From Mytilus galloprovincialis (taxonomy: Eukaryota; Mollusca; Bivalvia; Mytilida; Mytilidae): DNA of 64,000 bases. Below the pieces are notes generated by a model. It saw nothing but the letters and a program-made list of their open reading frames with translations. It did no database searches and was not told where the DNA came from. Made by a program: the position numbers and the translations under genes. Every line of letters starts with the position of its first letter. Within the stretch, counting starts at the first letter, position 1. The stretch is from contig NC_134849.1 in assembly GCF_965363235.1 (NCBI RefSeq), positions 48,306,122-48,370,121 on the forward strand, given 5' to 3'. Of the stretch, positions 4,557 to 62,277 are shown one piece after another.

Positions 4557-4755
4557 ACAAAATGCAAACCGTATTTTTTCACCAAATATCTAGCCAAATT
4601 CAACTCTGCCTGGTTATCTGATTTCAAATGGTGCAGATACAGTACCAAGGGTCAAGACCATGCTTACCACACTTCATGCACAGCTGACTATGGTGGCCCT
4701 AATGACTTAATTGACCAAACTTATGGAGACAGCTACCCACCAGCAAGCCTACAAC

Positions 4756-4945
4756 TCAATTTAACACCCTCTGTTACAAGCATGTTCATTACCTACAACT
4801 CTATCAACTTTACACCCTCTGTTACAAGCATGTTCATTACCTTCAACTCTATCAACTTTACACCCTCTGTTACAAGCATGTTCATTACCTACAACTCTAT
4901 CAACTTTACACCCTCTGTTACAAGCATGTTCAGTAGTGGTACCAA
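4756..4945 (+). repeat. 48-bp tandem repeat, about 3.7 units
   Basis: Units begin near 4760, 4809, 4857 and 4905 with TTTACACCCTCTGTTACAAG. Being a multiple of three, the array gives an open frame (MFITYNSINFTPSVTS repeated) that is a by-product of the repeat. Confidence 0.9.
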
Positions 4946-5032
4946 AGTTGACAATGTAGCTTAATCAGAGGTACCTTTTGTATGATAGTTGATCATTTGA
5001 TCTTGAAATAAACATAATGAATAAATATTCTT

Positions 5033-5265: not shown

Positions 5266-5733
5266 ACAAGAATGTGTCCAAAGTACACGGATGCCCCACT
5301 CGCACTATCATTTTCCATGTTCAGTGGACCGTGAAATTGAGGTCAAAATTTTAATTTGGCATTTTAATTAGACAGATCATATCATAGGGAACATGTGTAT
5401 TTAGTTTCAAGTTGATTGCACTTCAACTTCGTCAAAAACTACCTTGACCAAAAACTTTAACCTGAACTTCGCACTATCATTTTCTATGTTCAGTGGACCG
5501 TGAAATTGGGGCCAAAACTTAATTTGGCACTAAAATTAAAAAGATCATATCATGAGGAACATATGTACTAAGTTTAAAGTTGATTGGACTCAGTCAACTT
5601 CATCAAAAACTACCTTGACCAAAAACTTTAACCCGAATCCCGACGAACGGACGCACAGACGGACGGAATGACGAACGGACGTACAGACCAGAAAAAATAA
5701 TGCCCCTCTACTATCGTAGGTGGGGCATAAAAA
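5266..5733 (+). mobile_element. Bivalve repeat family B (ACAAGAATGTGTCC ... GGGGCATAAAA)
   Basis: Begins ACAAGAATGTGTCC and contains two units of an approximately 165-bp body (TATCATTTTCYATGTTCAG, AACTTCATCAAAAACTACC). It ends in a hairpin ATGCCCC...GGGGCAT followed by an A-tract. Other copies are at 43397, 48722, 49588 and 51449. No coding capacity. Confidence 0.8.
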
Positions 5734-6361
5734 TCTCCAACTATGAGGCCTAAACTCAGCTGAAAATTTCCAAATCTCCAGTTGTGGTTTGCCAACTCTG
5801 TCACATGTCTGAAAGTGAATATGTGTGTACTCAGTAAGAACCATATTGACTAATCAATAGCTATCGTTTATATATCATTTGTGTGCTTGGATGTTATCAT
5901 GCTTAACTATAGCATTATATTAATCTGTGTGGCTTGGCTTGCCTGCTAGAATAACAGTAGCAAATATTAGTGGCCTTGTCTTGCTATGTTGTGCTGATTA
6001 CAAAACCGTTTATATGAAAACTTTTCAGTTTTTAAAGATTTCAGTCTGAAATTTTTAGTCTGTATATATTAACATTTAAAACAGTCCATAGTTTTATGAT
6101 AGAAGTTTTAAAATTATACATTCTATGTGGAATACTTTTAAAATGGATTATATTGTGCCGTGTAACATAAGCCTCACATTCTATATTGATATTTGTGCAC
6201 GTGTAATATAAGCCAACTATTTCTTAAAATCCGTTTTGATGTGCTCCTCATTAGCCGGATAAAGATACAGAAAAGAAGAAGAAGTATAGAACTCTTGATC
6301 AGTATAATATCAACTACAAAACATTTTGTATAGAGCTCTTGGTCAATATACTATCAACCTA

Positions 6362-37798: not shown

Positions 37799-38011
37799 TC
37801 AGTACTGCTGGATCCTGGTTGTAGAGGAACCAGTATGGGACATTGTATGTGACAATGACCTCATACTTTCTGCCAACTTTTCAAACTCTTCCCATTTCTG
37901 ACTTTGCATAGATGATTCCATCATACTCATTCTATCTGTATCCCGAAGCTTGCCTTCCATTGTCTGGTTCTGTGATCTTAACAACATTATCTCCTGCTCC
38001 TTTGACTCAAG
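37799..38011 (-). CDS. Coiled-coil gene exon 14, last exon with stop
   Basis: 213 bases. The acceptor is CATTTTTAG|CTT. It encodes LESKEQEIMLLRSQNQTMEG and on through KWEEFEKLAESM to a Ser/Thr-rich end, SSTTRIQQY, then TGA at 37801-37799. A minus-strand AATAAA at about 37590 could mark the 3' end. Confidence 0.87.
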   Translation of the reverse strand, partial: LESKEQEIMLLRSQNQTMEGKLRDTDRMSMMESSMQSQKWEEFEKLAESMRSLSHTMSHTGSSTTRIQQY

Positions 38012-41000: not shown

Positions 41001-44000
41001 ATCCATGACAATGACTAAATGTCAGGTAAATACTAAAAGACCGATTTTTACACCTTACAATTATTTCATACACCAAATAAAGTTTACCTATTGCTTAAAT
41101 AGACTTAAACACAAAAACTAAACATCGACCAATATTAACCGTGAAAATGAAGTCAACGTCTGAGATAATACCTGTACACCAACAAATCATTTCATTGGCC
41201 TATTGCTTATAGTGCTTAAAACAGTCCCAAACACACACAAAAAACATCAACTTAACATTGACCAATGAACAATGAAAATGGGGAAAAGGACAGTTGAAAC
41301 CTGTCAGACTGACATAAACCCCTTACAATCATTCCATACACCACATTCAGTTGTCCTGCTGATTATAGTATCTGGGATATGGACGTAATCATGTAACTTT
41401 AACCTTGATCACGGATCCATAAAATGAGGTCAGGAGACAGTCTGATTAAAACCAGCCTCACTATCTACAAACACAAGTGGATATTGAGGGCTGGTTTTAA
41501 TCAGACTGGCCAGGAGGTGAACCCTGTCAGAAAAACATGTAAGCCCAGCAAGGAACCCATGTACCATTTAGTGTTATCGCACCGCGGGTAAAATATCACA
41601 TTGTGATTGGTTTAACGCCGTCACCTCAGAAAAATGCTCGAGCCACTTAACTTTCATAGCTCAAAATTAACGTTTTTACACAATATTTGAATAAAGTAGT
41701 TCAAGATTATTCGCTTCTCAAAGTGTAAGACGCAATAAAAATCGTATGCTTGCACTATCCTACCGAAATACGGATTTAATTAAGTCCTGAACATTTCGAC
41801 ATTTCTTCGTATATTTTGATCAAAACCGGTTTTGCCCAAATCACAAGTACGTGTTAAGATCCAACTAAATACCTATTTCCCAATATGGTCAGGTAAAGTT
41901 GCTACATATACAAAGAAAGAAACATATTTAAGATGGAAAAATTTCTGGGATTGATATTGCCTAAATATTCAATATTGTGTTGATGAAAAAACGCAATACA
42001 TTAAGGAGCTTGGTGGTGAAAAACCCAATTTGATATTAATTTGAGGGGTGAATTGGAATTGATAATGCAATTAAAAAACTTTATCACGCAATTACAAAAG
42101 AAAATGGTGGGTAAAAACCCCAATTTGTGAATTTTTATCTGGAGGGCTCTGTTAGATTCAATACAGAAAAATAAACAAATATCTGGAATTTTGCTTTTCT
42201 GAAGAAAACATTTTTTGTCCATAAATGAATCATTCGTATAGCTGCTTGGTATTCAAATCGACTTATACCAGAGGTATTAAAATTTGGATAGGAAAAACCT
42301 CAAGTTTAAAGAGAAATAAACTAAGCATGGATGATGATTGCAAATTAAGTGTCTAAAACAAATAGTAATAATTTAGGACAACAGTAAAGCAGCAAAAAGA
42401 AAGAAAAGTGATGGAATTGTCAAACAACAAACTTTCTCCTCTTAATTCTCTATAATCATTAAAGTGTTGATTAACACAATACCCTTTCTCCTCTTAATTC
42501 TCTATAATCATTAAAGTGTTGATTAACACAATAACCTTTCTCCTATTAATTCTCTATAATCATTAAAGTGTTGATTAACACAATACCCTTTCTCCTCTTA
42601 ATTCTCTATAATCATTAAAGTGTTAACACAATACCCTTTCTCCTCTTAATTCTCTATAATCATTAAAGTGTTGATTAACACAATACCCTTTCTCCTCTTA
42701 ATTCTCTATAATCATTAAAGTGTTGATTAACACAATACCCTTTCTCCTCTTAATTCTCTATAATCATTAAAGTGTTGATTAACACAATACCCTTTCTCCT
42801 CTTAATTCTCTATAATCATTAAAGTGTTGATTAACACAATACCCTTTCTCCTCTTAATTCTCTATAATCATTAAAGTGTTAATTAACACAATACCCTTTC
42901 AACTTCTTTTTGTAGATCCCCAAGCTGTTGAGTAAGTAAAGCATTTTCTCTGACAAGATTGGCATTATCATCAGTCAACTTGGACTTCATGTATCTATCA
43001 TGTTCTGCTGTCATTTCTGTTTCCTTCAAGTTCTGTCTCAACAGACGAATCTCATCCTGATAAAAAGAGCACTGAATATTATATAATGCCTGAACAAATC
43101 CATATCCTAAAATCTTATCGTTTACTTAGCTTGAGTTTCATTTCACAACCAATCAAGTTCAATTACTTTTACAACATACATTCTTGATAGCTGAGAACAA
43201 AACTTAGATTAACCCTAAGGCCAGTCAAAAAAAGATGCACCTATAAAAATAATTAAATGGTTGAGGCTTTTAGTATCTATAAATTGTCTTCAGTAGCACA
43301 CATGGGTACATACGCTTACATACAAGCAGATGTGGGAGGAACTTCCAGCGTCTTTCTAGGGAACAGCTAGGAGATATTACTACTAAAATGATTTTCAAAC
43401 AAGAATGTGTCCATAGTACACGGATGCCCCACTCGCACTATCATTTTCTATGTTCAGTGGACCGTGAAATTGGGTAAAAACTTTAATTTGGAATAAAAAT
43501 TAGAAATATCATATCATAGGGAACATGTGTACTAAGTTTCAAGTTGATGTAACTTTAACTTCATCAAAAACTACCTTGACCAAAAACTTTAACCTGAATT
43601 TCGCACTATCATTTTCTATGTTCAGTGGACCATGAAATTGGGGTCAAAACTATAATTTGGCATTAAAATTAGAAAGATCAAATCATGGGGAACATGTGTA
43701 CTAAGTTTGAAGTTGATTGGACTTCAACTTCATCAAAAACTACCTGGACCAAAAACTTTAACCTGAAGCGAACGAACGCACAGACGGACGAACGAACGGA
43801 CGTACAGACCAGAAAACATAATGCCCCTCTACTATCGTAGGTGGGACATAAAAATCTAGAACTGAGAACAATCAAAAGAAGCATTTGTGATGACTAACAT
43901 CAACAAAAGGGCTGTTAAAATTAAAATCAGCTATGATTGATTAATTGTTGCTCTCAGACTTAACATGCAGGGTAAATTGACTATGAATAAGATACATAAT

Positions 44001-47000
44001 TTCCATGCTATAATCTCTTGTATTATGCAAGGCTAAAATAATAAGGGTTTTATCAAAGGTTTGAAAATTGTTACATGCAATATGCACTTATAAAGAGCAG
44101 TCAGAGAATGAAAACTATTATTAAAAAATATTTAATCAATAAAAAGATAAGGTAGGATTGCCAATGCGACCAACTATTCTCAAGTGACCAGGATGTAAAC
44201 AACTATAGCCCACCGTATGGATTTTGCCATTGAGCAAAACCCATATCGTAAAATAAGCAATAAATGGTCTCAGTATTATAAAATAGGAATCAATTCAAGA
44301 GTATACCAACAGCAAACTGCTAAATTCAAAAGCCGTGTCTGTAAAATCATAAACAAGCATTTTTCATCATAATTGCAATAACATATTTTTTTTTAATTCC
44401 TATTACAATAATTATATGTCAAAGCTCTAACTAAGATGTAGCATCTAAAATTATGAGCTAAAGTAATTAAAAAAACTAAATTTCTTTAATTTACTTAGTG
44501 TGTGAGTAGGTGTGAAAGAAGTGTATCACATCAATTGTAATAGAAAAATTCCCTTTATCATTTATGCAGTGCTTCAATCAAAAATTTGGTTTTGTAAAAT
44601 GAGAAAAATAAAATGTTAGTTCACACATCACGGCATACACACACTGGGCAAATAATAAACTGTACCTCATTTGATGACATGACCTGTATGAAATGAATCA
44701 AAGTTAGTGAAATCAATCACCTAATATAGTCAATTGTTTTTAGTTTTTTTAAATCTTGAAGATTTATCTCCCCTTCAACACTGAAAAATTTGCAACAAAT
44801 TTTCGTTTAACTTATAAAATCTTTGGGTTTGAAATCAACCAGCATCAATAACCTTCTACTCAGTTTATGAAAAACAATCAATCTAAAATTAATTAAATGT
44901 CCAACATTTGATAATTATTCATGTAATAATTAAAATCAATTTTGAAGTTCTATTCTTTCATAGTTCTAAGTTTGTTTAAATTATTTGCCCCAAATCAATA
45001 AATAAAAAAAAATCATTAATTAAACCTGTGTGCAATTAATAGAATGATATTTAACTTATAAAATTTCTAAAGTTACCATTTTACTTCTTTTTTTTAATGG
45101 AATTCCTGTTTATAGAAATTTCTTATTCAACAACTATCATTTTTCTTAATAGCTTCTGAAACAGTCAAATAATAATTGTCTACTTGAAAAAAGTTTGTAA
45201 GTGTCATGCTACTTTTGCTGTTAATTGCAGGCTCAACAAAAATGAGGAAAACAAATAATAAAAAAAGTTCCTCTTGATACCATCTTTTTGATTGTAGGAA
45301 GATTCTGTCAAAGTTTGGTAAAAATCAAGGATAGTTTATGCAGCTCATAAATGTTTTTAAAAACTTTAACTGCAGACTATGTAAAATTAACCATTGCTAA
45401 CTGGAAGAAAACTAAGTCCATTTATAAGTAAAATACAGAAAAACAGGTAAAAAATTTTAACAAAATTTTCTTCTAGAGTAGATACTAGCTTTTGATCATT
45501 AACAAGCATCTGTCCAAGTTTGGTACAAATCCACGATAGTTTAAGAAAGTTATTGAAATTTTAAAACTTAAACCACAGAGTGAATGTTAATTTCTTGGCA
45601 GAAAAACATTTATAAGTAAAATGAGTTTTTTTTTTACAAAATTTACTTTTGGATACTATCTTATGATTATAAACAAGCTTCTGTCAAAGTTTGGTACAAA
45701 TCCAGGATAGTTTAAGTCATTATTAAAATTTTAAAAACTTTAACCAAATCTAGAGTGAATGTTAATTTCCTGGCAGAAACTTTTAAAGTCCATTTAAGAG
45801 TAAAATACGGAAAACAGGAGGTTTTTTTTTACAAAATTTACTTCTGGATACTATGGATAGTTTAAGAAAGTTATTAAAATTTCAAAAACTTTATCCACAG
45901 AGTGAATATTTGTGGACGCCACCAATGACAATAACGCAATGAAGGATCGCTATTTCTCGTTTTTTCAACAAAAATAAAAGGCTCGACAAAAAACATGTTC
46001 ATTAAATGAGTAGCCTCCTGATTTAGAAGCTTTAATTATATAACACTATGTAATAGATTGTCGAAGAACTGCGTTTCTTATTATTACCTTTAAGTCATTA
46101 GCAACTTTGTCTTGTATTTGTAAAGTATTATTGTAGTATTTATCTTCCAACTCCCTCAGCTGTGTCTGAACACTCAATAACTCGCTCCTCTTCTCATCTA
46201 AAGTAATCTGGGTCAAATTATGTTGTTCACCTCTTTGTTCCAGCTAAAACAGAAGAAAGAGTAATTTCAATCAATGAAGTAGTTCTTAACAAGAGGCTGT
46301 CACAACGAAATAAAAATTTCAAAAGCTTTGGTTGAATGGTGCATGAGAAAATGCACGGACACGACTGGAAACACCATTTTTCAATCTTTCAAGAACCATA
46401 ACTCCTGAACAGTATAAGTAAAAATCGTCATTATTGAACTTGACCTCCATTTTGTCATCAGTAACAACATATTAAAATTTGGGAAGCTTTGGTAGAACAG
46501 TTCATGCGTAAATGCATGGACACGACTGGAAAAACCATTTTTCAATCTTTCAAGAACCATAACTCCTGAACTGCGCCATTATTGAACTTGACCTTCATTT
46601 AGTTGTCAGTAACAACATATTAAAATTTTAAAAGCTTTGGTTGAACGGTTCATGAGTTAATGCACGGACAACATTTGATTGCCGCCCGCCCGCCCGCCGT
46701 ACATCCCCAAATCAATAACCGACATTTTTGTCACAAAAATCCGGTTAAAAACTATAATATGAAATAAAACAGTTGTTTGATGTCAATTAGACAGCAACCT
46801 GACAACATAAATAACCAAAAGACATCAAGAGGGCAACTACATAGAGTAGTAGTAACAACAGTTTATGTCTATATAGTATATAGCAAGCTCTCAATAAGTC
46901 TATAAACAGAAATAATTCTTTTGATCTCCATCTATGAAGATTACAAAAAAAAACCAGACTGTTTAATAACCCAAATCTTTACAAGTAGTCAATTTACAGA

Positions 47001-50000
47001 AGCTATATTGAGAAATATAAATGTACTGAATGTAATACATTTTTACAGAAGCTATTAAAAGAAATCATATTTGTTTGCCATGAAATGAAAAGGACAACTA
47101 TCAAATATGCACAGTAAATGTCTCCCAAATAAAACTACTAACCAGGACCATAGGGAAATAAATATTGTTCAATTTTGAAGTATAAATGTGGCAATTGTTT
47201 TTTCTCTTCTGAAATATTTCACTTTGGGTTTTACTCATTATTCAAAGCCATACTGTGACATGTAATTGTTCATTGTTAACATCTTTGACCATAATAAATA
47301 AATGTCTCATTGTCAAATTGACAATCAATGAACTTTATTTTGAAATTGGATTATTTGTATGTATATAATCATAACAGATTATGAACTTATTTCCTCAGTA
47401 TGTCATATATATAAAGTAAATCAATGATTGCACATACTTTCATTTGTTTTGCAAAAAATCTAATTTCTAGTTTGAAATAATTGTATTGGCATAATATAAA
47501 AAGATATTGTAAAATAAATAAATCTACTATTGAACATATAAAAATTCTATTATTCATGCATAAAAAATAATAGATAAGTTAATATATAGGCATGTTTACA
47601 TGTATTGCTATCAAATAAATCACAAAATATGTTTTGACTTAACCCAATCTGTTAGATGACCTGAAACAAAAACAATTCTGCTTACTGGAGATTAAAAGCC
47701 CTTACTGTGTACTTGTGACCAAATTACTTTTTTTATCCAAAAGCTACCCTATATCTTTTTTCGCTTATTCTTATTTGCTGACCCATAAAAATGAGGTCAA
47801 GGACAATGGACATATGACAGATAGAATCTTTGTAACATAAGGTATCTGTATTGTTAAAAAATATAAAGCATCTATATAGCTAGATCTTCTACTGTCTGAA
47901 TAAGGGTTACACAAGGGTGCTAATTTTCCATAAACCCACCTTTTTATACGCCCGTGAAAATGTTGATGGGACGTATTATGGTATACAAATGTCCGGCCGT
48001 CTGTCTGTCCGGCGTAAACATGTTGCACCGTAACTTGAGAACGACTTATCCAAATTTCATGAAACTTAATATGATTGTTTTTTATGATGGTCAAATGATC
48101 TGTCTACTTTTTGGTGAAAATAAGAATAAAACTTTTTGAGTTACGGCACTTTGTAAGGGGTCTGGTTTTTTTCACATGTCGCACCGTATCTCAGAAAAGA
48201 TTTTTGATTATTGCTTAAAACTTTACACACTTCTTAGTTATATTAATCTTAAGATCTGTATACTTTTTGGTGATGATTCAAAATTTTATTTTTGAGTTAT
48301 TGAGTATTTTGTAAAAAAGGGGGAGTTTTTTTTTACATGTCGCGCCATATCTCAAAAAACGATTTATGTTTATTGCTTAAAACTTTACACGCTTCTTTGT
48401 TACATTAATCTAAAGATTTGTATACTTTTTGGTGAAGATTCAAAATTTTATTTTTGAGTTATTGAGTATTTTGTAAAAAAAGGGGGAGTTTTTTTTTTAC
48501 ATGTTGCGCCATATCTCAATAAACAGCTGCGCCATGAGCGCATGATACGCCGACGTCTTGTGTGGAAGTTTTATGCAATAATCATAAATAGTTTCTGAGA
48601 AAGTTTTAAGCAATACTATTGATTCATTATTATTCTTTTGATACCAATTTTCGTGGCTTTCGTGGTTACAGGTGAACCACGAATTAAATGTTCAACGAAT
48701 AACAAATTTTCTATAGGCTTATATGCAGAATTTTTAATTTGGCATTAAAATGAGAAAGATCATATCATGGGGAACATGTGTACTAAGTCTAAACTTAATT
48801 GGACTTCAACTTCATCAAAAACTACCTTGACCAAAAACTTTAACCTGAAGTGGGACAAACAGACGAACAAACGGCAATCGGACGTCCAGAAAACATAATG
48901 CCCCTCTACTATCGTAGGTGGGGCATAAAAACTTGTCATCCTCTCATCAGAAATGCTCCAGGAAAGAACAATTATACCATTATATCCCCATGCATGATTT
49001 GACACTAGGAGAAACACATAGTAAATAATCTGATTACTGTAAATTAATTGCATAAATAATTCCCCATGCTATTGACTAGTACATTATCTATATCTCCTGT
49101 CGTGCATCATGCTGCTGTACTCACAGAAGGTCCCTCAGTCATTTCCCTATCAGTACAAACTTCCTCTTTAGGAGGAGGTAAATCAAATCTTGTAACTTTC
49201 CTCATCGATGAAAAATCATATTCATTAACACCACTATCAGATGACAACTTATAATTTCTAATATGCTTGTCAGAATATTCTTCATACTTCTCAGAATTAC
49301 TCTCCAAGACTTCATAACATTTATCATTTCTAGGGAGGGGCTCGTCATACTTTCTGAAACTTCCGTCAGACAAAATACTCCTTATAGGCGATAGATCATA
49401 CTTTCTGACTTTACTGTCAGATAAGACATCACATCTTGAAGTATCTCTACCCCTCTCAGAAAGATCTTTTAAGATTTGATGTATCTACAGAACATAACAA
49501 CAACTATGATGAAATCCAATACACAATCCAGCAACAATACAAAATTCTCAAAGCAACCTGAACATATGCTCACATTATAACTTCTAAACAAGAATGTGTC
49601 CACAGTACACGGATGCCCCACTCACACTATCATTTTCTATGTTTAAAGGACTGTGAAATTGGAATAAATTCTCTAATTTGGCATTAAAATTAGAATGATC
49701 TTATCAAAGGGAACATGTATACTAAGTTTCAAGTTGATTGGACTTCTACTTTATCAAAAACTACCTTGACCAAAAACTTTAACCTGAAATTTGCACTATC
49801 ATTTTCTATGTTCAGTGAACCGTAAAATTGGGGTCAAAACTCTAATTTGGCATTTAAATTAGAAAGATCATATCATAGGGCACATGTATACTAAGTTTCA
49901 AGTTGATTGGACTTCAACTTCATCAAAAACTACCTTGACCAAAAACTTTAACCTGAAATTTGCACTATCATTTTCTATGTTCAGTGAACCGTAAAATTGG

Positions 50001-53000
50001 GGTCAAAACTCTAATTTGGCATTTAAATTAGAAAGATCATATCATAGGGCACATGTATACTAAGTTTCAAGTTGATTGGACTTCAACTTCATCAAAAACT
50101 ACCTTGACCAAAAACTTTAACCTGAAATTTGCACTATCATTTTCTATGTTCAGTGAACCGTAAAATTGGGGTCAAAACTCTAATTTGGCATTTAAATTAG
50201 AAAGATCATATCATAGGGCACATGTATACTAAGTTTCAAGTTGATTGGACTTCAACTTCATCAAAAACTACCTTGACCAAAAACTTTAACCTGAAGCCAA
50301 AAACTTTAACCTGAAATTTGCACTATCATTTTCTATGTTCAGTGAACCGTAAAATTGGGGTCAAAACTCTAATTTGGCATTTAAATTAGAAAGATCATAT
50401 CATAGGGCACATGTATACTAAGTTTCAAGTTGATTGGACTTCAACTTCATCAAAAACTACCTTGACCAAAAACTTTAACCTGACGCCAAAAACTTTAACC
50501 TGAAATTTGCACTATCATTTTCTATCAGTGAACCGTAAAATTGGGGTCAAAACTCTAATTTGGCATTTAAATTAGAAAGATCATATCATAAGGAACATGT
50601 GTACTAAGTTTCAAGTTGATTGGACTTCAACTTCATCAAAAACTACCTTGACCAAAAACTTTAACCTGAAGCGGGACAGACGGACGAACGAACAGACGAA
50701 CGAACGAACGAACAGACGGACGGACGAACGGACGCACAGACCAGAAAACATAATGCCCCTCTACTATCGTAGGTGGGGCATAAAAATAAAATTACAAAAA
50801 TACTAAACTCAGAGGAAAATTCGAAAAGGAAAGTCCCTAATCAAATGGAAATTTCAAAAGCTCAAACGCATTAAACGAATAGATAACAACGGTCATATTC
50901 CTGACTTGGTACAGGCATTTTCTGATGTAGTAAATGGTGGAATAAACCTGGTTTTACAGCTAGCTAAACCTTTGTTTAGTCTAAAACTATTTTTAATATC
51001 TCGGAAGTTTTCTTATATGGAGTATTAATTTACATCTTTTGCATCTGATGCATTATAATTTGATCTATTCATTTTTAGAATGGGTATTTCCAGTTTCAGT
51101 GATAATGTGGATTCATATATTTTTGTGGATACCAATTTTCCTTGACATGTTTCATTGTTTTGTCATTACTATGGTCTATTACCTGACTCCTAAGGGACTG
51201 GATTTTTATTTCAGCATTTTTAAGTGCAGTTGCACTCTTATCAAGCTCAGTTTTGGCATCAAACAACTGTGAATCTTTCTGGTTTAATTCCCTATCCATC
51301 ATATCTTTCTCTTTTTTAAGCTCTATTATTTCATCCATTAGGTTTCTCTTATCTCTGGATCTGGCAGCTAAAATTTCAGCATTCATTTACAATTATTTTT
51401 AGTTCTAACAATGTATACATTTCAAAGGATACTTCAAGAAGTCTTATATAACAAGAATGTGTCCATAGTACACGGATGCCCCATGTCAATACTTTAATTT
51501 GGCATTAAAATTAGAAAGATCATATCATAGTTAACATGTGTACTAAGTTTCAAGTTGATTGGACTTCAACTTCATCAAAAACTACATTGACCAAAAACTT
51601 TAACCTGAGCTTCACACAATCTTCTTCTTTGTTCAGTGGACCATGAAATTGGGGTCACTACTTTAATTTGACATGAAAATTAGAAAGATCATATCATAGG
51701 GAACATGTGTACTAAGTTTCAAATTGATTGGACTTCAACTTCATCAAAAACTACCTCGACCAAAAACTTTAACCTGAAGCGGGACGAACGAACGGACGGA
51801 CGAACGGAGGCACAGACCAGAAAACATAATGCCCATCTACTATCGTAGGTGGGGCATAAAAAGAAAGTGAATAGCTACAAAAAAAACTCTTTCACATCAG
51901 AGAAGTTATAAATGCATCTCTTGACTTATAGATATCTTAAGTAATGAATATTTAAAGTAAACCTATTTTATGCTCAGAATATATACAGCGACTACTAAAA
52001 GAATTTTGTGAACAAAAATCCTACTCTGTATGATAATCTAAAGAAAACAAGATATTGGATGTAATATTGCTCAAATATCCCTTAAATCTGGTAATATCAA
52101 AGATAATACAACCTATTGTAATAAAATTCCAGACAAAATATAAAATCACTCACAATCCAAAAGCTGGGAAATATTTAAAAAAAGTTATGAACAGACACAA
52201 AGAATGACAGAATGACGGAGTGAAGAATGGATAGGCCAGGTGACGCAGTATACCATATTCTACTGTCTTATATCTAATGTAAAAGGTACCTTCTTCATCA
52301 TGCAGCCTCTCAAATGTTTTTTCTTTCTCAGTATTGGTCACTGCAATTATTGTTTCTTTCTTCTTTATTTCCATCTGTAAACTATCTATCTCTAGCTGCA
52401 TAGTCTGATAATATATATAACTCCATGTAAATATAAAAGGAATTATCTTATAAAGATGATATCCTTAGGATTGAAATAGGAAGAGGGCTGACAAAAATAT
52501 CCTACTTCATATAGTATTTAAGTGTCTGATTTATAACAACATCAGCATATGGAAATAAAGCAACTTTTTTGTGTGTTTAAATATACATGTATATATAAAG
52601 TAAGATGAAATACACAATGGAACACTGATTAACCTCAGTTTAAAAGTCACTGAAAATTAGCTTGGGCCAGTAGGTCAGAAGCTGTTTTTCATAATTATGG
52701 ATGTGAATAACACCCAATTACAATCCCTTTTTTTTCATGTTTTGTACAGTCGCCTTTTAACGTACATAACTCATGTGTACGGATTGATAGAAGATTAAGT
52801 AAGATAGATTTGGATACAAAGTACATTTTACTTAATATTATAATCAAGTAAAAACTTCATTTATTATTTTTTAATTTTAGAAATTACCAGTTAATTGATG
52901 GTTTTTTTAACAGTGGTATTCTACAGTTGCCTTTATTTATACATATATATGACAATATTTAAATAAGAATATGTGTCAGTTATAGGACACCATGTTCGTC

Positions 53001-56000
53001 TGATGACACTATCACATTTCAATGTCCAGTGTACTGTAAAAAGTAAATGTACTTACTCTTAATTTTGTTAACATTCTCTCTGCCTCAGCTGTCATCTTTG
53101 GATGCATTTCTGTTGCTTTCTTTGCTTGGTCTCGAGTAGTCAAGTTAAGAAAAAATAGGTAAAAGTCATTTTTATCAAGGACTAGCATCATTGACTCACT
53201 GTATATCTTTTTAGTGTCGAACTACTGATTCATTGATGGTTACTTATGGTTACTTATTTTCAAGGGTTTCTTTTAATTTATATTCAGACATTTATATTTA
53301 ATTCTTTCAAGCATGAAATGAAGGTGAAGGTTATGTTGACTTGTAAACCTTTTTATATGGGATATGGGTTATCTTTTCCAATAAGTCATACAAAATTGTG
53401 TGCATGATTCATTTTTCAATGTACATTTAAATGCAGACTTGCTTAAACAAATGGTCAATCAGAGTACTCCTTTGATGTTGTGATGATCAAAATAATATAC
53501 TTCCAATCTGTATCCTTCCTTGAATATAAATTGTTGTATTATAAAGGATATAGATAATTTGATTCTAGTTCCAGGAAGTAGATTTGCTGCTGTAGATTTT
53601 TTATATATTCTGCTTCAATGTTATCTAGATTGGCCAAGTTTGACTTTGATTTCCTGAAAAATAAAATAATGATAAATGAGTCATCTGAGTTTTAGATAGA
53701 GACACATCTCCCCAGTATTTTATTATTTGAATAGCATTATGGAATTTAAAATAGTATCTTTTCCCTGAAAATAAATTATAGTACTGCATTTACATGTAAA
53801 GTTACACATTAAAATACCAAAAACATTTTAAATAGCACCATGGCAAAATTTACAAGATATACATTACTTATTCTGAGCATTAAAAATAAATCACAATTTA
53901 ATTTATACCAAAAAAGAGTAAAAAATAAACTAAAGATTCTATATTTTCTAATACATTGTAAAGGGCACGATGAACATGGTGAACTCACTGATTAGATGTA
54001 GATGTAGAATTAAAATTAGCAGCTAAACTGCCTGTGCTTTTCCTCATCTTGTTTGTACTCTTAGTTTTCTTAAATGTAAAATCTGGCATAGACTTCTGGA
54101 CATCTGTCAGGTAATTTCCTGGATAACGAGAAAAATATCTTAATACATGTACTGCAAAAGACTATATACAAATTCTAGATTGTTTATAAACCAATTCATA
54201 TCTTTACCTACATGTAATTTTTTTTTTGTGATCACTTTTTTCTACAGACAAATTGGCAGTCCATAATTCTGAAAAGCCAATATCAACATAAACAAAGCAT
54301 TAATTAAACAAACCTTCAGATAATTTTCATTTTTTGTTAATATTTGCATAAGAACAGTTCTTAGTGCACGTGTTGGAGATTTATTGTACTCTTCTGTATG
54401 CAATCTAATTTTCATGAGTCTAGAAATAATGTTCTTTATTAAGTTATTTATAACACATTTACTATTCAGGTCACCTGTACCATAGAAATGTTCCTCAAAA
54501 ATTGGTGTATGAAACATTGCTTACTGAAACCACATATATGTATTTACTAATCATCCCAAGGCCAGCAATCTCAAGAGTCTCTTTTCCCATAAAAAAAAGG
54601 AAAGTGTGGTACTGGTACATACATGTACTATATACTGTGACTAAATGTTAAAAATGTACATAAAGCAAAATACAGATTATATTACTTAAGCAGTAAGCCT
54701 GAGAGCCACCTTTTATTAACTGTGAATGCATTAATCAAATATGTTACAACTTCAACGATACAATGGTTTTCCTAATCAAACATATTATTGCCATTGCCAT
54801 ACCAAAAGTATACATTTTTTTAAAGATATTTTTCATGTTTATGTCTATATCCTTTAAGCTCATCAACATGTTTAAAGTAACTGAATCAATATAAATCACA
54901 AATAAAGATAAATCCACAATATTGCAAAAAAATACAATAAAGCATGTTTAAATAAGTGAAAAGTTCATAAAACATGCATGTGAACTTGTTGGAAGCATTT
55001 AAATAAAATGCAAGCAATATTTGTGGATTTTTAATAAATTTCTGGCACATGCACATAAATCATAATCCAATCGATAAAAATTAAAAAAAGCTAAATGCAG
55101 GTCTGTTTGAGAATTTAATAAAAATTTCATGATAAATAATATGAAGCAAACTGAAGATTTAATATGGATCAGGGCAGGCAATTGATACATATAGATTATT
55201 ACATTGATACAAGTGGGTTATCAGATTTATCCAATCGAGATAGTTAAATTATCAATTTTAAAGGCCGAGCCTCGGCGAGGGCTTTAAAATTTATAATTTA
55301 ACTATCGAGATTGGATAAATCCGATAATCCAAGCGTTACTATGTAATAATCTGTTTCCCTAATGATTAAAAGATAAATTTCCTTTTTTTCTAAACCAAAT
55401 CCCCTTCGAGTGCCTTCAATTTTCCACGAAGTTGTCAATTTCATTAACACCTGTTAGAACATTTTGATCATTTCAGGGAGCTGAGAAAGGTTATGAACCT
55501 TTGAATCAGCCAATCATCTTCTGAGATCACTGGCAACCACACGTTGATTACATTTTTTTATACAATGGGTTGGGAAAGGAATATATTTCCATAGAATTAG
55601 AGAAACATATCTTTTCAACCAAAACTTTTTGAACAAGCAATTATATTTTGAAAGTACCATATATACTGTTCTTTAAAATATTGGGTACCCAATACCAGGA
55701 TTTAAATGTATTTAAGGTAGATCATAAGTAAATGTTTTTTGAGACAGAATTTTCTTATAATTTGCCAAAATGAAGATGTTACTATGCTTTTTTCAAAAAT
55801 ATAATAAAAAGTATGGGTCACCGTGCTATTATTCAAGCTATGAGTCGTTAAAAATTGCCTAAATTTGGTTAGTTTGTTCATGAAAAAACACATAAGAGTG
55901 CATAAAAAAAATTCTATGAGATAGAATTTTGAAATAAATTGTGAGAAGATAGGTTTCATAATATGCTTTAAAAAAATAAAAAGAAAACATGGTGTCACCG

Positions 56001-59000
56001 AACTTGTTTTCTTGCCACAAGTAAAAATAAAAAATTTCCCTATTAGCCCAGTATAAATTTTGTACTAAAAGAGTTATCTCCCCTTAAATGGCTCATTTGA
56101 AAAATATGAATTTAAAAACCAAAAAGGTTGATATTTGTTAAAATATTTTGAATAATACAATAAATCAACAAGTTTTCTTTATATAAATAAACATTCTAAC
56201 CATTAAATTGCAAATCTGTTTCCAAATTTGCTGATTTGGGAAAATAACAAGACCGATTTTGTAGTGTGATTGTACAATCCAAGATGAAGTATACCATGAA
56301 TCTACCTTAAGGAGGCTCATGGGTACAAAAATTTCAGGAAAAAATTAAACCTTTATTTTTTTATTACAAATTTTATTTATTACACTATAAGTTATTACTT
56401 TATGATTTGGTACAAAAATCAACCAAAAAAATTGATTCAGTTCGGCCCCAGAAGACTTTTAAAATGTTTATATCATTGAAAAAGCTCCAAATTATCTCCC
56501 TTTGGTGCAAAAATGAACGGTGACTCCATTTTTTTATTTCATTTTTCTATTAAGTATAGGATAAAGTTCATTTCTAAAAAAATATAGCTAAATCCTATAT
56601 TAGAAAAAAAATTTGATTTATACCCAGGAGCCCCCTTAAACCAGCAAAGTTTTCCCTCTCCCCTTTCCCCTCATCAGTATTTTCAATTAAACATTGTCAT
56701 TAGGACACTAAATTTGAGTTTGAAAGGTCTACGAAGAGGTAATCATAGTATACATTTTGTACATGCTGCTGCATGACTATTACCTTCAAAACCATTACAA
56801 GACATTACAAGACTATTACACTGACTGTTAAATCTGATAGAATCTGAAACCTATTTAAGAGAGCTCTTAGTTCAGAGCAGCTCAAAATTGAGCCTTTTCA
56901 ATACTTTTCAATATCCCACTATACTTTAAACTGTAAAAAATGTACACTACGTGCTTCAATTTAAGGACACCATCATCAGTACATTTAAATATAAGCTTAA
57001 GGAAAGTACAGTTTTATGAAAAACATGCATAATTATAATTATAAGTAAGCAATTGATGTAATGTATACATGTACCTATGTCCATATCAGACCTCCTCCAG
57101 TTTCCAATAACTGCATGTATATAATGTAAAAATGTTAACACAAATAAAATTTTAGGTTTAGATGTTCTAAAATATAGTAAACCTTATTAGTTAAAAGATA
57201 CATTGTACTATGTTTGTCAATCAGGATCAATGAACAATTGGATTGTAAGATACAAATTATATATCATAATTGATTGACATACATGAACATGTATGAATAA
57301 TATATCAGCATCCTGCAGTTGTTAAAATAACACCATTTAAACAAAATATGTTGACTACAAAATTTGTATGGGTTCCACGGAACCTGGTGTCTTGTCTACT
57401 TTTGCTGTAAATCACAGGCTCAACAAAAACAATCAAAAAAATAATGATTAATAAAAATCTTCCTCACGATACTATCTCTTAATTGTAAGAAGCTTCTGTC
57501 CAACTTGCAAGTTTGGTAAAAATCCAAGATAGTTTATGAATCTAATAAATGTTTTAAAACTTTAACTGCAGACTGTATGTAATGATAACTGGATGAAAAA
57601 CTAAGTCCATTTATAAGTTAAATACGGATAAACAGGTACAAAATTTGGACAAAATAACCTTGAGATACTAGCTTTTGATCATCAACAAGCTTCTGTCCAG
57701 GTTTGGTACAAATCAAGGATAGTTTAAGAAAGTTATTAACATTTTACAAACTGTAACCACAGAGTGAATGTATTGTTTCCTGACAGAAAAGTCCATTTAT
57801 AAGTAAAATTAGGAAAATAGAAAAAAAAAATTATCAAAATTTACTATCTTATGAGGCCTAAATTAAAATATAGTTTGTTTGCCCTTTTCCGACCCTATGT
57901 TTTGAAACAGGGTAGGTAGGTAGGTAAAATATTTTATTTTTTTCCCCATTAAAATAACTTGGCTCGGTATATTATTTGTCATGGGTAGGCAGGTAGGTAT
58001 AATATTTTATTTTATAGATACAAAATCTGCAGAATGTCATTTTGGTCCATTTTGTTTTTGCAAATAAGTTTTCTGGGACTATTAGTTTTAAAAAAAAGAA
58101 TGTGAAGCTAATTCATATGCACTACTATTCTGTTTTCAAATATCAAAATATAGACCTGTGCCGCATATCTTCAACGTTTATATGCCTGGAACTTTGAAGA
58201 GTTTGAATTTGCGCTCACATTCTGTACTACGTACCTTGTACGCTTACCTAAAGGTTTTCTGTAAGAGATAACTTTGTACTGGTAAGATATGTCCGGGAAG
58301 TCATACATTACTAGTAGAAAAAGTCCATAGAGGGTTAAAAATTTCGCGCGTGCCTAAAAGTTGTTTCCAATAAAAATGCTACAAGACTTAAAACTCAATT
58401 GTCAGGTTTTTTACATCGCATTTATAAATGATCTGTATGGAAAACTTGGCGATTTTACTGCCAGATATTCTCCACTTTACAGGGTTTTGTCACTTTTGGT
58501 TCATATCAGATATAAATAATATATCGGCATCGTTAACATAATCATCCTGATCTGCGGATCACAAAAGGCAATCCCTACATAGAACACAACGTCCGTTTAA
58601 AAATTAGTTTGTGCACACGTTGATAATTTTGTATCAAACAAACTTTTTTGTAAATGAACCCTGCTCTTTAAGTATAAAGGTACAGAGTAACGTACGTCAT
58701 ATCATGATTTCAGGAAGCGTTCAACATCGATTTCAAACAAATGCATTGAAACTTCAAATGCAAGTGTTCATGTCAAACGCTCAGGTGATACCAAACGGAC
58801 TGGACCTTATACGTTACAGATAAAACCCGAGGATTCCGGTAAAAATGTTTTGAGCGGGAAATACAAATATAAGATTTTTGGTAGGAACGAAAAAATGAAA
58901 TAAAATAAAATCTTGCTGGTTAATACAAATAAAAGATTTTCAGGCGCAACGAATTTATAGGGTCGGTCGGTAAAGGGCAAACAAACAATATTTTAATTTA

Positions 59001-61591
59001 AGCCTGATCATAAAAAAGCTTCTGTCCAAATTTGGTAGAAATCCATGAAAATTTAAGAAAGTTATTAAAATTTTACAGAGTAAATATTTGTGGCCGCCCC
59101 CGCCAACAAAATGTAGGATCGCTATGTCTCGCTTTTTCGACTGAAGTCGAAGGCTGGGCAAAAAAGAAGAATGCCACCTGTCTATGGGACACAGGTGTCC
59201 CAGCTTGTCATATATATATATATATACATGTATATGGCAAATTCAGCTATTTTTCCCTTGGTTATTGGACAAGTAATTTACTAGTGAATAATTGAAGTTC
59301 CCAAATTCAAACTTGATCTGTGTTTGGTGGAAATATACATGTAATTACATGTACATGTAAGCATTGAATATGCATGATATAAATTGCATATAAACTGATT
59401 AAGAAAAACTTAGATTAGATTTTACTTGTTTTACCACTTTTTATTCATTATTTACATAAATAACACCATTAATATGCTATTATTCTTGATTTTTTCTTGC
59501 CTTTGTCAAACTGGAGTGGAAGGAGGCATTAAGTTTGACCCTTGTAAATGTAGGAGATTGAGGTGCAGGAATGTCAAATTTAGTAATTTTTTAATCAAAA
59601 GGGGACACAACTCGAGAACAGTAAAATAAGCAATGCAAAAACATTTCATTCAGGAAAACTCAAGTAAGAGAAAACTAACTAAATTCAGGATGTACGGACA
59701 TCCAGCTGGACAAGGGTCAAACTTAATGCCTCCTTCCACTCCAGTTTGACAAAGGCAAGAAAAAATCAAGAATAATAGCATATTAATGGTGTTATTTATG
59801 TAAATAATGAATAAAAAGTGGTAAAACAAGTAAAAAATAGAGAAAATTGCCATAAAGGGCATAAAAACTTAAAAAGTAAACAAGTGTGCACCCACTGGAA
59901 TTTTATGCCTAATTGATCATCATGATCAATTGAATTTTAAACTGTACACTAAATATATACATTTGTAGTTAGCCTATTATTCATACATGTAGTAATATAT
60001 GAGATCAAAAGTTTATTAAGAAAATTGAACATCAACCAATGAACAATAAAAATGAGGTCAAGGTCAATTGAACCCTGCCAGACACTTGAACACCATGCAA
60101 TCATTCCATACAATGAACAATGAATATTATCAATTAGTATAGTTGGCTTTTAAATAATTAAACAAATATACATGTAACATCAAGGTTGTAATCTTTTGAA
60201 AACTGTCATAAAGAAAATCATTGCTTCACCATCTATACAAAATAACTGTGACAGTCAAAAGAGTTACATCCTTTTTACATGTACATATAAATTAAATAGA
60301 ATGGAAATGGGGTATGTGTCAAAGAGACAACAACATTTGTACATGTAGGAGATTGAGGTGTCATTCATTCCATAAGTTTACACAATACAAAGTACACACT
60401 GAAAATGATGATGTCTTAAACTTAGACCCTGTTCACACAAGGACATTTGGATGGGTTCACTTTAGATTGGTTTAAAGGCTTTTGTGAACGCTTTGAATAG
60501 ATCTTTAATCCTTCTAAACTAAAACACCAAAAAAGGCATTTTAATTTGAAATGATCTAAGGTAACCAATCTAACATTAAATGTGAACCCAAAGATCGGTT
60601 TGAACTAGTACATGTAGTACGATTGAACCAAAAATAATTTATGCACATGTATAGCATCAATTCTTAAAAGTGTAATTACATAATATCCATGTATAAATGG
60701 GTGGTTCTTTGTTAAACCAATATTTCTCAGACCTCTGTTTAAAAACAGACCTTTGTGTATACGTACAAACAAATTAAAACAAAACACTGTACCATTTTTT
60801 TAAAATTAATTTGTATGTCTAGCTTCCTTTCTTCTGTTGTTTTGGGTTGGTTTTTTTTTCTTTTCAGGAACCAAAGCAGTTATTTATGGTGTAACTGCCT
60901 TGCTACAGTTTTTGTTTCAAAATTAATGAAAACTACAAGAATACGGTGACTTTCACCAGTATCAAAATTTGAACTTTTTTTAATTTTCAAGAGAAACAAT
61001 AACTTGAATAACTTTGGCCATTTTTTTGAAGTGTGTGTATCCATGTATCAGAGCACCAACACATACATTTGATTATTTTTTCTATTTATACACAATATTT
61101 GCAGTTTTACGGGTAAATAGGTCAGATCGATTGCATATTTAATTATAGTGTGAACACAGTGGTTCAGATAGATAGCTAGAGATCCTTATGATTAAAGATA
61201 AATTAATGTGAACGCTATCTGGTTTCATTATTTAGATCAATTCAAATTAGATTGATGAAAAAAAAATGCTAGTGTGAACAGGGTCTTAGTATCCCAAACA
61301 TTTAACTTATTACAACATGCAGTGACATGAATCTGTCATCATGCAGTCGTATTTGTAATTACTAAAACTATTTTTATAACTACATGTACATTTTTTAAAA
61401 TATATCATCTAAAATTCTGCTGCTTAATACTGATTTTACCAACCTCTGTCTGTAGAAGGTCGAGAGGGTGATGGACTACGAGACCTAACATTCTGCCTGG
61501 ATGGAGAAGGACTTCTTGATCTCAATGACCTGCTCCATTCAATAACATCAGCAGTTTGTGTACCCATTGGTGCAGAAATTCTTTCTGTCAT
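37799..61591 (-). CDS. Long coiled-coil protein with Arg/Ser-Pro N-terminus, 13 coding exons, about 670 aa
   Basis: Thirteen coding exons join with consistent phases into 2013 bases, i.e. 670 residues plus stop. The first ATG in the spliced frame is at 61591 (context AATACTATGA). Residues 20-46 are repeats of RSRSPSPSR. Residues 50-105 are basic and probably disordered. From about residue 110 to 635 the sequence is mostly heptad-like coiled coil, with a well-ordered block around IKNLQQQIYFLELESNYLRD (residues 122-141). A non-coiled insert (266-385) comes from one large exon. The C-terminus ends in a Ser/Thr-rich tail. Proteins of this build are often centrosomal, ciliary or sperm-tail components, but I cannot assign a family name and no function is claimed. 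All introns are GT-AG except one AT-AC. Further phase-0 exons hidden in the long introns cannot be excluded. Confidence 0.85.
38259..38405. repeat. GC-rich structured insert in the last intron
   Basis: Stem-loops CGGCAAAGCCG and CACCAAGCTGTAAGCTTGGTG are followed by GGGGGTCTGGGGGCGGC and AAGCTCTGGCA. It contrasts sharply with the AT-rich intron around it. Confidence 0.6.
39753..39920 (-). CDS. Coiled-coil gene exon 13
   Basis: 168 bases, phase 0 at both ends. The acceptor is TTTAATTTCAG|TTA and the donor AGAAAG|GTTAGTTT. It encodes LTKTESSTTTTELQLKTVKS and on to LVDHVSEIQRK. Confidence 0.87.
40225..40351. mobile_element. 127-bp imperfect palindrome (MITE-like)
   Basis: GACTGTAA / TTACAGTC ends. 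Inner arms GAAATAACATCAAAAATG and CATTTTTGATGTTATTTC pair perfectly, then GCACACTT / AAGTGTGC. Confidence 0.8.
40660..40818 (-). CDS. Coiled-coil gene exon 12
   Basis: 159 bases, phase 0 at both ends. The acceptor is TTATATCAG|GAA and the donor GAAAAT|GTAAGTCA. It encodes ERGARQTTESRHTQSHSELI and on to KSRHYLEN. Confidence 0.87.
41438..41508. repeat. 71-nt hairpin with a perfect 20-bp stem
   Basis: CAGTCTGATTAAAACCAGCC (41438-41457) pairs with GGCTGGTTTTAATCAGACTG (41489-41508). A few more pairs extend inward around one bulge. Confidence 0.9.
42432..42900. repeat. 52-bp satellite, about nine units, abutting exon 11
   Basis: Units start at 42432, 42484, 42536, 42588, 42636 (a 48-bp unit, GATT deleted, precedes it), 42636, 42688, 42740, 42792, 42844 and the exon junction at 42896. 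Units are nearly identical. Confidence 0.95.
42895..43056 (-). CDS. Coiled-coil gene exon 11, donor inside a 52-bp satellite
   Basis: 162 bases, phase 0 at both ends. The acceptor is TTTTTATCAG|GAT and the donor GAAAGG|GTATTGTG. It encodes DEIRLLRQNLKETEMTAEHD and on to LQKEVER. The last bases of the exon and its donor are also the first unit of the adjoining satellite. Confidence 0.85.
43397..43854 (+). mobile_element. Family B copy
   Basis: Full copy with two body units, a GAACGAAC/GGACG tract and the ATGCCCC...GGGACAT terminal hairpin. It lies in an intron on the strand opposite to the gene. Confidence 0.8.
43860..45180. other. Intron sequence, nothing recognised
   Basis: AT-rich part of the intron between exons 10 and 11. 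Confidence 0.45.
45200..45996 (+). mobile_element. Repeat family C (GCTCAACAAAAA ... GGCTCGACAAAAA)
   Basis: Begins near TTTTGCTGTTAATTGCAGGC and has four diverged body units (AGTTTGGTACAAATCCANGA, GATAGTTTAAGAAAGTTATT). It ends GGATCGCTATTTCTCG...AGGCTCGACAAAAA. A second copy at 57390-59168 is split by a transposon. Confidence 0.7.
46088..46243 (-). CDS. Coiled-coil gene exon 10
   Basis: 156 bases, phase 0 at both ends. The acceptor is CTGTTTTAG|CTG and the donor CTTAAAG|GTAATAA. It encodes LEQRGEQHNLTQITLDEKRS and further heptads ending DKVANDLK. Confidence 0.87.
46289..46749 (+). mobile_element. Repeat family G (GAGGCTGTCACAACG ... CCGGTTAAAAA)
   Basis: Diverged 180-bp body units (AACCATAACTCCTGAAC at 46389 and 46555), a (CCGC)n-type tract at 46681-46698, then a TTTTTGTCACAAAAA hairpin and A-tract. 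Confidence 0.7.
46750..47930. other. Intron sequence between exons 9 and 10, nothing recognised
   Basis: AT-rich. A fragment of a common mussel repeat (AAATGTCTCATTGTCAAATTG) may be present near 47300. Confidence 0.4.
47940..48560 (+). mobile_element. Repeat family H (TTTATACGCCCGTGAAAATG)
   Basis: The start CGCCCGTGAAAATGTTGATG is followed by three body units with ACATGTCGCGCCATATCTCA (at about 48175, 48338 and 48501; spacing 163 bp). It ends around GCGCATGATACGCCGACGTC. Confidence 0.7.
48722..48930 (+). mobile_element. Family B copy, 5' truncated
   Basis: Only the last body unit and the ATGCCCC...GGGGCAT hairpin with A-tract remain. Confidence 0.8.
49125..49484 (-). CDS. Coiled-coil gene exon 9, 360-nt symmetric insert exon
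   Basis: The acceptor is TGTTCTGTAG|ATA and the donor GGACCTTCT|GTGAGTAC. Phase 0 at both ends, 120 codons. Unlike its neighbours it is not heptad-rich: it is Asp/Ser/Tyr/Arg-rich and holds three degenerate repeats of the type SDSxVRKYDLSP, SDGSFRKYDEPL and SDSGVNEYDFSS. Exons 8 and 10 join in heptad register without it, so it may be alternatively spliced (inference). Read-through past the donor meets a TGA within a few codons. Confidence 0.75.
49588..50787 (+). mobile_element. Family B copy with body expanded to six units
   Basis: Body units start at about 49626, 49792, 49961, 50130, 50319 and 50508. Spacings are 166, 169, 169, 189 and 189 bp; the last two carry a duplicated CCAAAAACTTTAACCTGA. 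Units 2 to 6 are nearly identical, indicating recent amplification. Confidence 0.85.
50787..50975 (-). repeat. Family A copy, minus
   Basis: AAAATACTAAACTCAGAGGA, AAAGGAAAGTCCCTAATCAA and ATTCCTGACTTGGTACAGGC, directly joined to the family B A-tract. Confidence 0.8.
51183..51367 (-). CDS. Coiled-coil gene exon 8
   Basis: 185 bases. The acceptor is AATTTTAG|CT and the donor GAGTCAG|GTAATAG. Phase 1 in, phase 0 out. It encodes AARSRDKRNLMDEIIELKKE and further heptads ending KIQSLRSQ. Confidence 0.87.
51449..51862 (+). mobile_element. Family B copy
   Basis: Lacks part of the first body unit. It ends ATGCCCATCTACTATCGTAG and GTGGGGCATAAAAA. Confidence 0.8.
52290..52404 (-). CDS. Coiled-coil gene exon 7
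   Basis: 115 bases. The acceptor is ATTATCAG|ACT and the donor GAAGAAG|GTACCT. Phase 0 in, phase 1 out. It encodes TMQLEIDSLQMEIKKKETII and on to RLHDEE, with strong heptads. Confidence 0.85.
53057..53135 (-). CDS. Coiled-coil gene exon 6, downstream of the AT-AC intron
   Basis: 79 bases. It begins TCGAGACC directly after ...TTGACTAC, an AC acceptor, and ends ATTAAGA|GTAAGTAC. It encodes RDQAKKATEMHPKMTAEAER and then MLTKLR. Only the AC acceptor keeps the frame with exon 5. Confidence 0.8.
53136..53551 (-). other. U12-type AT-AC intron, 416 nt
   Basis: The 5' end ATATCCTTT matches the minor-spliceosome AT-AC donor. The branch-site-like TTTCTTAAC (53152-53144) lies about 10 nt from the terminal AC at 53136. 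Joining at these points preserves the reading frame (NYL|RDQ). Confidence 0.8.
53552..53653 (-). CDS. Coiled-coil gene exon 5, upstream of the AT-AC intron
   Basis: 102 bases. The acceptor is TTTTTCAG|G. The exon ends TTATCT| followed by ATATCCTTT, a U12-type AT-AC donor. No usable GT donor exists before the in-frame TAA. It encodes the start of the coiled coil, AEYIKNLQQQIYFLELESNY, plus two bases of the next codon. Confidence 0.8.
53989..54118 (-). CDS. Coiled-coil gene exon 4
   Basis: 130 bases. The acceptor is TTATCCAG|GA and the donor AATCA|GTGAGTTC. It encodes a Lys/Ser/Thr-rich segment starting NYLTDVQKSMPDFTFKK. Phase 1 in, phase 2 out. Confidence 0.85.
55193..55352. mobile_element. 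160-bp foldback element
   Basis: Ends AGATTATTACAT / ATGTAATAATCT. The arms pair for about 70 bp with some mismatches around a GC-rich centre (CCTCGGCGAGG). Confidence 0.8.
55712..56310. mobile_element. TTAA-flanked TIR element, about 595 bp
   Basis: TTAA at 55712-55715 then GGTAGAT; the right end is ATCTACC then TTAA at 56307-56310. No transposase. It contains GAGTTATCTCCCCTTAAATG. TTAA duplications are typical of piggyBac/Kolobok elements. Confidence 0.65.
56307..56639. mobile_element. Second TTAA-flanked TIR element, about 325 bp
   Basis: TTAA 56307-56310 then GGAGGCTCATGGGTA; the right end is TACCCAGGAGCCCCC then TTAA 56636-56639. The inverted ends match at 13 of 15 positions. Confidence 0.65.
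57075..57110 (-). CDS. Coiled-coil gene exon 3, 36-nt microexon
   Basis: The acceptor is ATACATGCAG|TT and the donor GACATAG|GTACAT. It adds IGNWRRSDMDI and completes codons on both sides (phase 1 in, phase 1 out). Its phase fits exons 2 and 4 exactly. Being symmetric in phase, it could be skipped without a frameshift. Confidence 0.7.
   Translation of the reverse strand, partial: LLETGGGLIWT
57390..59168 (+). mobile_element. Family C copy interrupted by a TIR transposon
   Basis: Left part 57390-57854 and right part 59005-59168 (ending GGATCGCTATGTCTCGC, ACTGAAGTCGAAGGCTGGGC, A-tract). Removing 57855-59004 and one TGA restores the family C sequence CTTATGATCATAAA. Confidence 0.75.
57855..59004. 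mobile_element. Non-autonomous TIR transposon, 1150 bp, TSD TGA
   Basis: Left TIR GGCCTAAATTAAAATATAGT..., right TIR complement GGCTTAAATTAAAATATTGT...; similarity extends about 45 bp through TTTGTTTGCCCTTT. It is flanked by TGA on both sides. Subterminal GTAGGTAGGTAGG at 57908. No transposase frame. Confidence 0.8.
59420..59835. repeat. 126-bp inverted duplication with 164-bp spacer
   Basis: The arms 59420-59545 and 59710-59835 appear identical in reverse complement, without indels. The mirrored frames containing TGVEGGIKFDPC on both strands are a product of this duplication. Confidence 0.92.
59840..61440. other. Intron 2 remainder, short repeats only
   Basis: A mussel repeat fragment (GGAAATGGGGTATGTGTCAA, AGAGACAACAACA) lies at 60300-60335, and GTAGGAGATTGAGGTG recurs at 59551 and 60345. 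No exon was seen. Confidence 0.45.
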
Positions 61592-61630
61592 AGTATTTCT
61601 ATATTGTATATATTCCAATGGATTTTTAAC
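61444..61630 (-). CDS. Coiled-coil gene exon 2 (start codon; RSRSPSP repeats)
   Basis: 187 bases. The acceptor is TTGTAATTAG|GTT and the donor ACAGAG|GTTGGTAA; it ends in phase 1. Translation is placed at the ATG at 61591. If translation began upstream in an unseen exon, thirteen more codons of this exon would be coding. The alternative donor 4 bases downstream (TTG|GTAAAA) would bring an in-frame stop in exon 3, so it is rejected. Confidence 0.8.
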
Positions 61631-62277
61631 CTAATTACAAGGTGTACAATTAATGCACTACGGTCTAAAGGAGGCGGGGTATAGTGGTATTTGCTTGGAT
61701 TACAGGGGTGAAAGGTTATAATGTCCGTCACCGAAAATGCACTTCAATCTTTAAATGCATGCGATAAAACAAAGTATCAGTTTCCTTCCGATTGTTAATC
61801 CTACCAACCTCCCAAAGACTTCTGAGATGACATTAAACTTTCTTGCTTTCCATAAGTAGAAGAAATCCTGGACATTTTTGCAAATTTTTGACAAGTTGGG
61901 ACGCGGTTTTCGTTGCAATGGGCAACAAATGTAAAGTTTTTATTTTCGTATTTTTCATTTCCGAATTCTCAATAGAAATTAGATACATGAATTCTGCAAA
62001 TTATCTTAACAATTTTAAAATTCATTTTTTCTTTATATTTGAAAACAATTGTCTTGACATTTTCCCTTTTTATACCTTATTTTGGCTTTAGAATTGTTGC
62101 TAAATATTAAATGCAATGGCTGCTTTTCTGCAAGTGGGTGTCTTTTATTTTAAAAAGTTTAACGCTTTATCTTTCTTTCAAAAATTTGACATATCCTCAT
62201 ATGAAAATCAATTGGTGTATAAAATTATATTGATTTGAAAGTTATCCTTACACTATCCACTAAATACCCGTACACAT

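Follow-up and report, generated by a model that had tools for sequence, protein, structure and literature searches.

A predicted U12-type AT-AC intron in a coiled-coil gene of the mussel Mytilus galloprovincialis

We analyzed a stretch of 64,000 nucleotides from Mytilus galloprovincialis (contig NC_134849.1, forward-strand positions 48,306,122 to 48,370,121; hereafter the window), in which splice sites and reading frame outlined a long gene on the minus strand. Its early protein contains SRSPSPSR repeats, and most of the remainder was judged by eye to be a charged coiled coil. The initial model of the gene began with an ATG at 61591 and had 11 exons; a later model had 12, through the addition of 61875-61809 and a shift of the next exon's start to 61584; the AT-AC intron considered here is intron 3 in the former model and intron 4 in the latter. 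The 12-exon frame was open throughout to a TGA at 37801-37799. The features referred to below are as follows (a slash marks a splice junction):

37799..61875, minus strand: host gene, 12-exon model of 558 codons, built from splice sites and reading frame
53552..53653, minus strand: upstream exon (exon 4 of the model, apparently exon 5 of the first-pass annotation), 102 nt, acceptor TATTTTATTTTTCAG
53136..53551, minus strand: U12-type AT-AC intron predicted from sequence, 416 nt, phase 2
53543..53551, minus strand: 5' splice site ATATCCTTT, consensus match 9/9
53539..53541, minus strand: TAA reached on intron retention (..NYLYPL, then stop), intron positions 11-13
53144..53152, minus strand: branch site TTTCTTAAC, 8/9 to TTCCTTAAC, branch A at 53146 or 53145
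53139..53141, minus strand: possible tandem AC acceptor GAC, in frame, adding Thr, 3 bases upstream of the preferred one
53136..53138, minus strand: 3' splice site TAC, acceptor preferred on branch distance and heptad
53057..53135, minus strand: downstream exon (exon 5 of the model), 79 nt, donor AGA/GTAAGT

The model is least certain in exon 1 (61875-61809) and at the acceptor that precedes 61584. The likely first coding exons on the minus strand are 61875-61809 and 61584-61444, in which MSRISSTYGKQESLMSSQKSLG is joined in phase 1 to ERISAPMGTQTADV...SRSPSPSR; the acceptor between them, ATACTATGACAG, contains few pyrimidines. The intron that they enclose (61808-61585, GTTGGT...GACAG) was classed as GT-AG by reading only. 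Searches for the identity of the host protein returned Pfam matches solely below the curated cut-offs and no PDB match for the full-length protein at E 1e-3; fragments of the protein gave only weak PDB matches, three at E of at most 1 (with a query that carried three surplus residues at one junction) and eight at E of at most 5. No relative was detected in bacterial/archaeal and viral collections, which contain no animal genomes (35 and 14 stretches fitted a pattern, with none confirmed). The literature on minor introns in coiled-coil or ciliary genes named human examples, none of them tied to the host protein, and a search that included Mytilus gave no paper naming this genus among the matches listed. 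Rfam reported no RNA family at gathering thresholds across the whole window.

Elsewhere in the window, three open stretches with hydrophobic segments on the minus strand (27543-27268, 22298-22047 and 21221-20928) resembled, on inspection by eye, exons of a claudin-like protein with four membrane passes; a Pfam search of these three stretches was negative at E 0.01. The plus-strand segment 4060-4377 showed a match below the cut-off to the reverse transcriptase zinc-binding domain (PF13966, E 0.0067) and is probably a retroelement remnant. Copies of a repeat were present in introns and elsewhere (50500-51870, 48763-49068, 43681-43893 and 5593-5853), with FLCPTYDSRGALCFLV..VRPSVR and KFLVKVVFDEVEVQST in translation, and short tandem repeats in translation were found on the plus strand at 342-702 and 4715-4961 (KKYSKVFPFSKRKDLNN and units of LCYKHVHYLQLYQLYT).

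In the minus-strand sequence, the upstream junction reads ...AATTATCT/ATATCCTTTATAA at 53552/53551 and the downstream junction TTTTTTCTTAACTTGACTAC/TCGAGACC at 53136/53135; the intron opens with ATATCCTTTATAA and closes with CCTATTTTTTCTTAACTTGACTAC, and its branch site is followed by TTGACTAC. The sequence and coordinates of an AT-AC intron at 53136..53551, as proposed in the first-pass annotation, were correct on this strand, and the following U12-type signals were recovered: donor 9/9, branch site 8/9, adenines at -11/-10 and an intact frame. The donor consensus of U12-type introns is given as ATATCCTT(T) (PMC2831892, PMC6259924), and the donor agreed with the published RTATCCTTT at all nine positions. 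The branch 9-mer TTTCTTAAC had a single mismatch to TTCCTTAAC (TTCCTTRAY). The two branch adenines, 53146 and 53145, occupy intron positions -11 and -10, at or slightly below the short end of the 11-13 nt that PMC3584512 describes as the optimum distance between branch and acceptor of U12-type introns. Introns of the U12 type end in YAC or YAG and lack a distinct polypyrimidine tract; here the end is TAC, but a T-rich run, CCTATTTTTT, extends into the branch site and blurs the second of these features. Position +5 of the donor is C and not the G that PMC2831892 describes at +5 of the sodium channel AT-AC introns handled by the major spliceosome. The intron joins coding exons in frame (their coding status comes from the reconstructed model), with the junction after base 2 of codon 147 (TAT CT/T CGA, Tyr-Leu-Arg); minor introns are described in PMC10639083 as under-using phase 0 and as comparatively numerous in molluscs. 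These sequence signals give us high confidence that the minor (U12-dependent) spliceosome removes 53551-53136 as an intron, with the exons most likely joined at TAT CT/T CGA.

The other introns of the gene served as an internal control. All ten of them were GT-AG in the model (nine scored and the first only read), in agreement with the first-pass annotation. Among the nine scored GT-AG introns, the donor matched TATCCTTT at no more than six of eight positions and the branch region reached no more than 7/9, and the two never occurred together in one intron. Intron 5 of the 11-exon model (minus strand, 52289-51368) opens with GTACCTTTT, which matches the U12-type donor at 6/8 from position 2. 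Since its branch region matched at no more than 5/9, we did not accept intron 5 as a further minor intron; it is perhaps a converted minor intron, or its donor likeness is due to chance.

The donor on its own hardly exceeded chance expectation. Four exact copies were present on the two strands of the window together, whereas 60 Markov simulations averaged 1.37, and the donor alone was rejected as evidence, since three of the four copies had no partner within 5 kb on their own strand. Pairs of ATATCCTT and TTYCTTRAY-N4-12-YAC on the same strand, 60-5000 nt apart, occurred once in the window, namely as the AT-AC intron; simulated sequences held a mean of 0.27 such pairs, and 13 of the 60 held at least one. 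The sole pair in the window coincides with two in-frame exon ends. With a null of composition-matched simulated flanks (120+180 nt), a donor of 9/9 together with a branch site of 8/9 in frame was obtained once in 200,000 trials, and relaxed thresholds gave 10 of 100,000 (donor 8/9, branch 8/9) and 152 of 100,000 (donor 8/9, branch 7/9); both the motifs and the thresholds were picked after the site was seen, and these rates therefore serve as guides.

We then enumerated the possible splices between the two exons, with the upstream exon start fixed at 53653 and the downstream exon end at 53057. There were 21 candidate donors before the in-frame stop (16 AT, 4 GC and 1 GT), and 152 combinations kept the frame (2 GT-AG, 18 GC-AG, 51 AT-AC, 75 AT-AG and 6 GT-AC). 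The earlier statement that the upstream exon has no usable GT donor was fair in substance, but one GT does precede the stop (53644, AAA/GTCAAA, 5/9 to the major donor consensus). It allowed two frame-keeping GT-AG choices, to the purine-rich acceptor at 53199 or to the AG at 53076 inside exon 5; both acceptors are poor, and either choice would keep nine bases of the upstream exon. The further statement that a single AC keeps the frame proved incorrect, as six do so (53214, 53139, 53136, 53112, 53091 and 53067). Two of the 51 AT-AC choices, 53136 and 53139, scored 17/18 for donor and branch site together, and the next best scored 13.

The closest competitor of the preferred acceptor is thus TTGAC/TAC at 53139, used alone or in addition, which would insert a threonine (NYL-T-RDQ). 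It shares the donor and branch site with 53136, has an equal motif score and is in frame. However, the exon would then begin just 8 or 7 nt from the branch adenines, under the 11-13 nt optimum described in PMC3584512, and the heptad would be broken: with the register continued across the junction, the mean Kyte-Doolittle hydropathy of the a/d positions that follow was 1.8 at 53136 and -1.83 at 53139, a weak comparison of only 10 and 11 residues. We preferred 53136 on the basis of branch distance and heptad register, and consider the use of 53139 improbable as a rival account; its additional use alongside 53136 would be compatible with the best explanation.

Slightly less probable still is that GT-AG splicing bypasses the exon 53653-53552 altogether, with exon 3 (ending at 53989) joined to an AG in the intron or exon 5, or to some other small exon. 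The upstream exon of 102 nt is symmetrical and its skipping can therefore preserve the frame, as in a direct join to an exon start at 53198 or 53075. Its G+C content (31.4%) was the lowest among the 12 exons (33.8-45.4% in the others) and equals the background level of the window (31.6%). Among models spliced by GT-AG introns alone, with a single intervening exon no shorter than 15 nt, 306 were in frame, four of which combined a donor of at least 6/9 with two acceptors of at least 7/12 pyrimidines. On the other hand, the acceptor before 53198 has only 3/12 pyrimidines, 53075 sits within exon 5, and the four better models require exons of 17 or 53 nt while discarding an exon whose acceptor has 10/12 pyrimidines (range 6-11 across the nine scored GT-AG introns) and whose translation carries a heptad. 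Bypass of the exon would also make the AT-AC signals a coincidence.

It is very improbable that 53653-53552 is instead part of a terminal exon that ends at the TAA 53541-53539 and closes a 150-residue protein, with the exons below belonging to another transcript: ATTAAA is present 3' of the stop at 53302 and 53277, but AATAAA is absent from the intron, the frame runs on through eight further exons to a stop, and the AT-AC signals would be left without explanation. Such a form may occur alongside the spliced form, as a retained-intron isoform.

Under the preferred reading, removal of the intron by the minor spliceosome, U11 and later U6atac would base-pair with the donor ATATCCTTT, and U12 would pair with TTTCTTAAC, where one or the other of the adenines would serve as the branch nucleotide, as expected from the known biology of this class. 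The exons would then be joined, most likely as Tyr-Leu-Arg (NYL-RDQ), and the coiled-coil heptad would continue. Retention of the intron would lead to the TAA within four codons and to a product of 150 residues, and thus the full 558-residue protein would depend on minor splicing. In human cells with low U6atac, minor introns are described as staying unspliced and limiting the mRNA (PMC3728624); by analogy with these human genes, expression of the host gene could depend on the U6atac level. Human minor-intron genes with altered expression upon reduction of ZCRB1 are associated in PMC13216214 with processes of the cilium and centrosome. A coiled coil would fit a role in the cilium or centrosome, and would equally fit many other roles. 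As a speculation to which we attach little probability, this could be an ancient, position-conserved minor intron of a perhaps centrosomal or ciliary coiled-coil gene, in which the early TAA provides an on/off switch limited by U6atac and the tandem GAC/TAC acceptors may give a pair of proteins, with and without a single threonine and hence one step apart in heptad register.

With regard to annotation, gene finders restricted to GT-AG introns would split the host gene or lose an exon at this site, and the AT-AC junction repairs the model. Conservation of position in orthologues is frequent, though not obligatory, for U12-type introns; if the position of this intron is common to other phyla, it would provide an orthology marker. 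The intron in itself offers nothing new, its class being already well known.

The intron is very probably a textbook member of the U12-type AT-AC class, the first description of which is attributed in PMC2831892 and PMC3584512 to Jackson and to Hall and Padgett. It resembles the members described in these sources in its donor ATATCCTT(T), its branch site nearly identical to TCCTTAAC, the short distance between branch and acceptor, the AC end and its position as a lone minor intron amid GT-AG introns, and no difference from those descriptions was detected within the intron. The AT-AC intron of mammalian SMYD2, for which the human donor is given as ATAAAT/ATATCCTTTA (PMC7367187), has the same first ten bases, ATATCCTTTA, and also ends in AC, whereas its branch region is CTTTCCTTGACT and its phase is 1, as opposed to TTTCTTAAC and phase 2 here; no kinship between SMYD2 and the host gene is known. 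The consensus class is also shared with the D1S1 U12-type AT-AC site of voltage-gated sodium/calcium channels, likewise animal genes. That site belongs to ion channels and is conserved across their paralogues according to PMC6259924, whereas the host here is a coiled-coil gene. Finally, AT-AC introns that the major spliceosome removes, intron 21 of SCN4A among them (PMC2831892), have the same terminal dinucleotides, but the U2-type AT-AC introns of sodium channel genes carry +5 G in that description, in contrast with the +5 C and U12-type branch site of the mussel intron.
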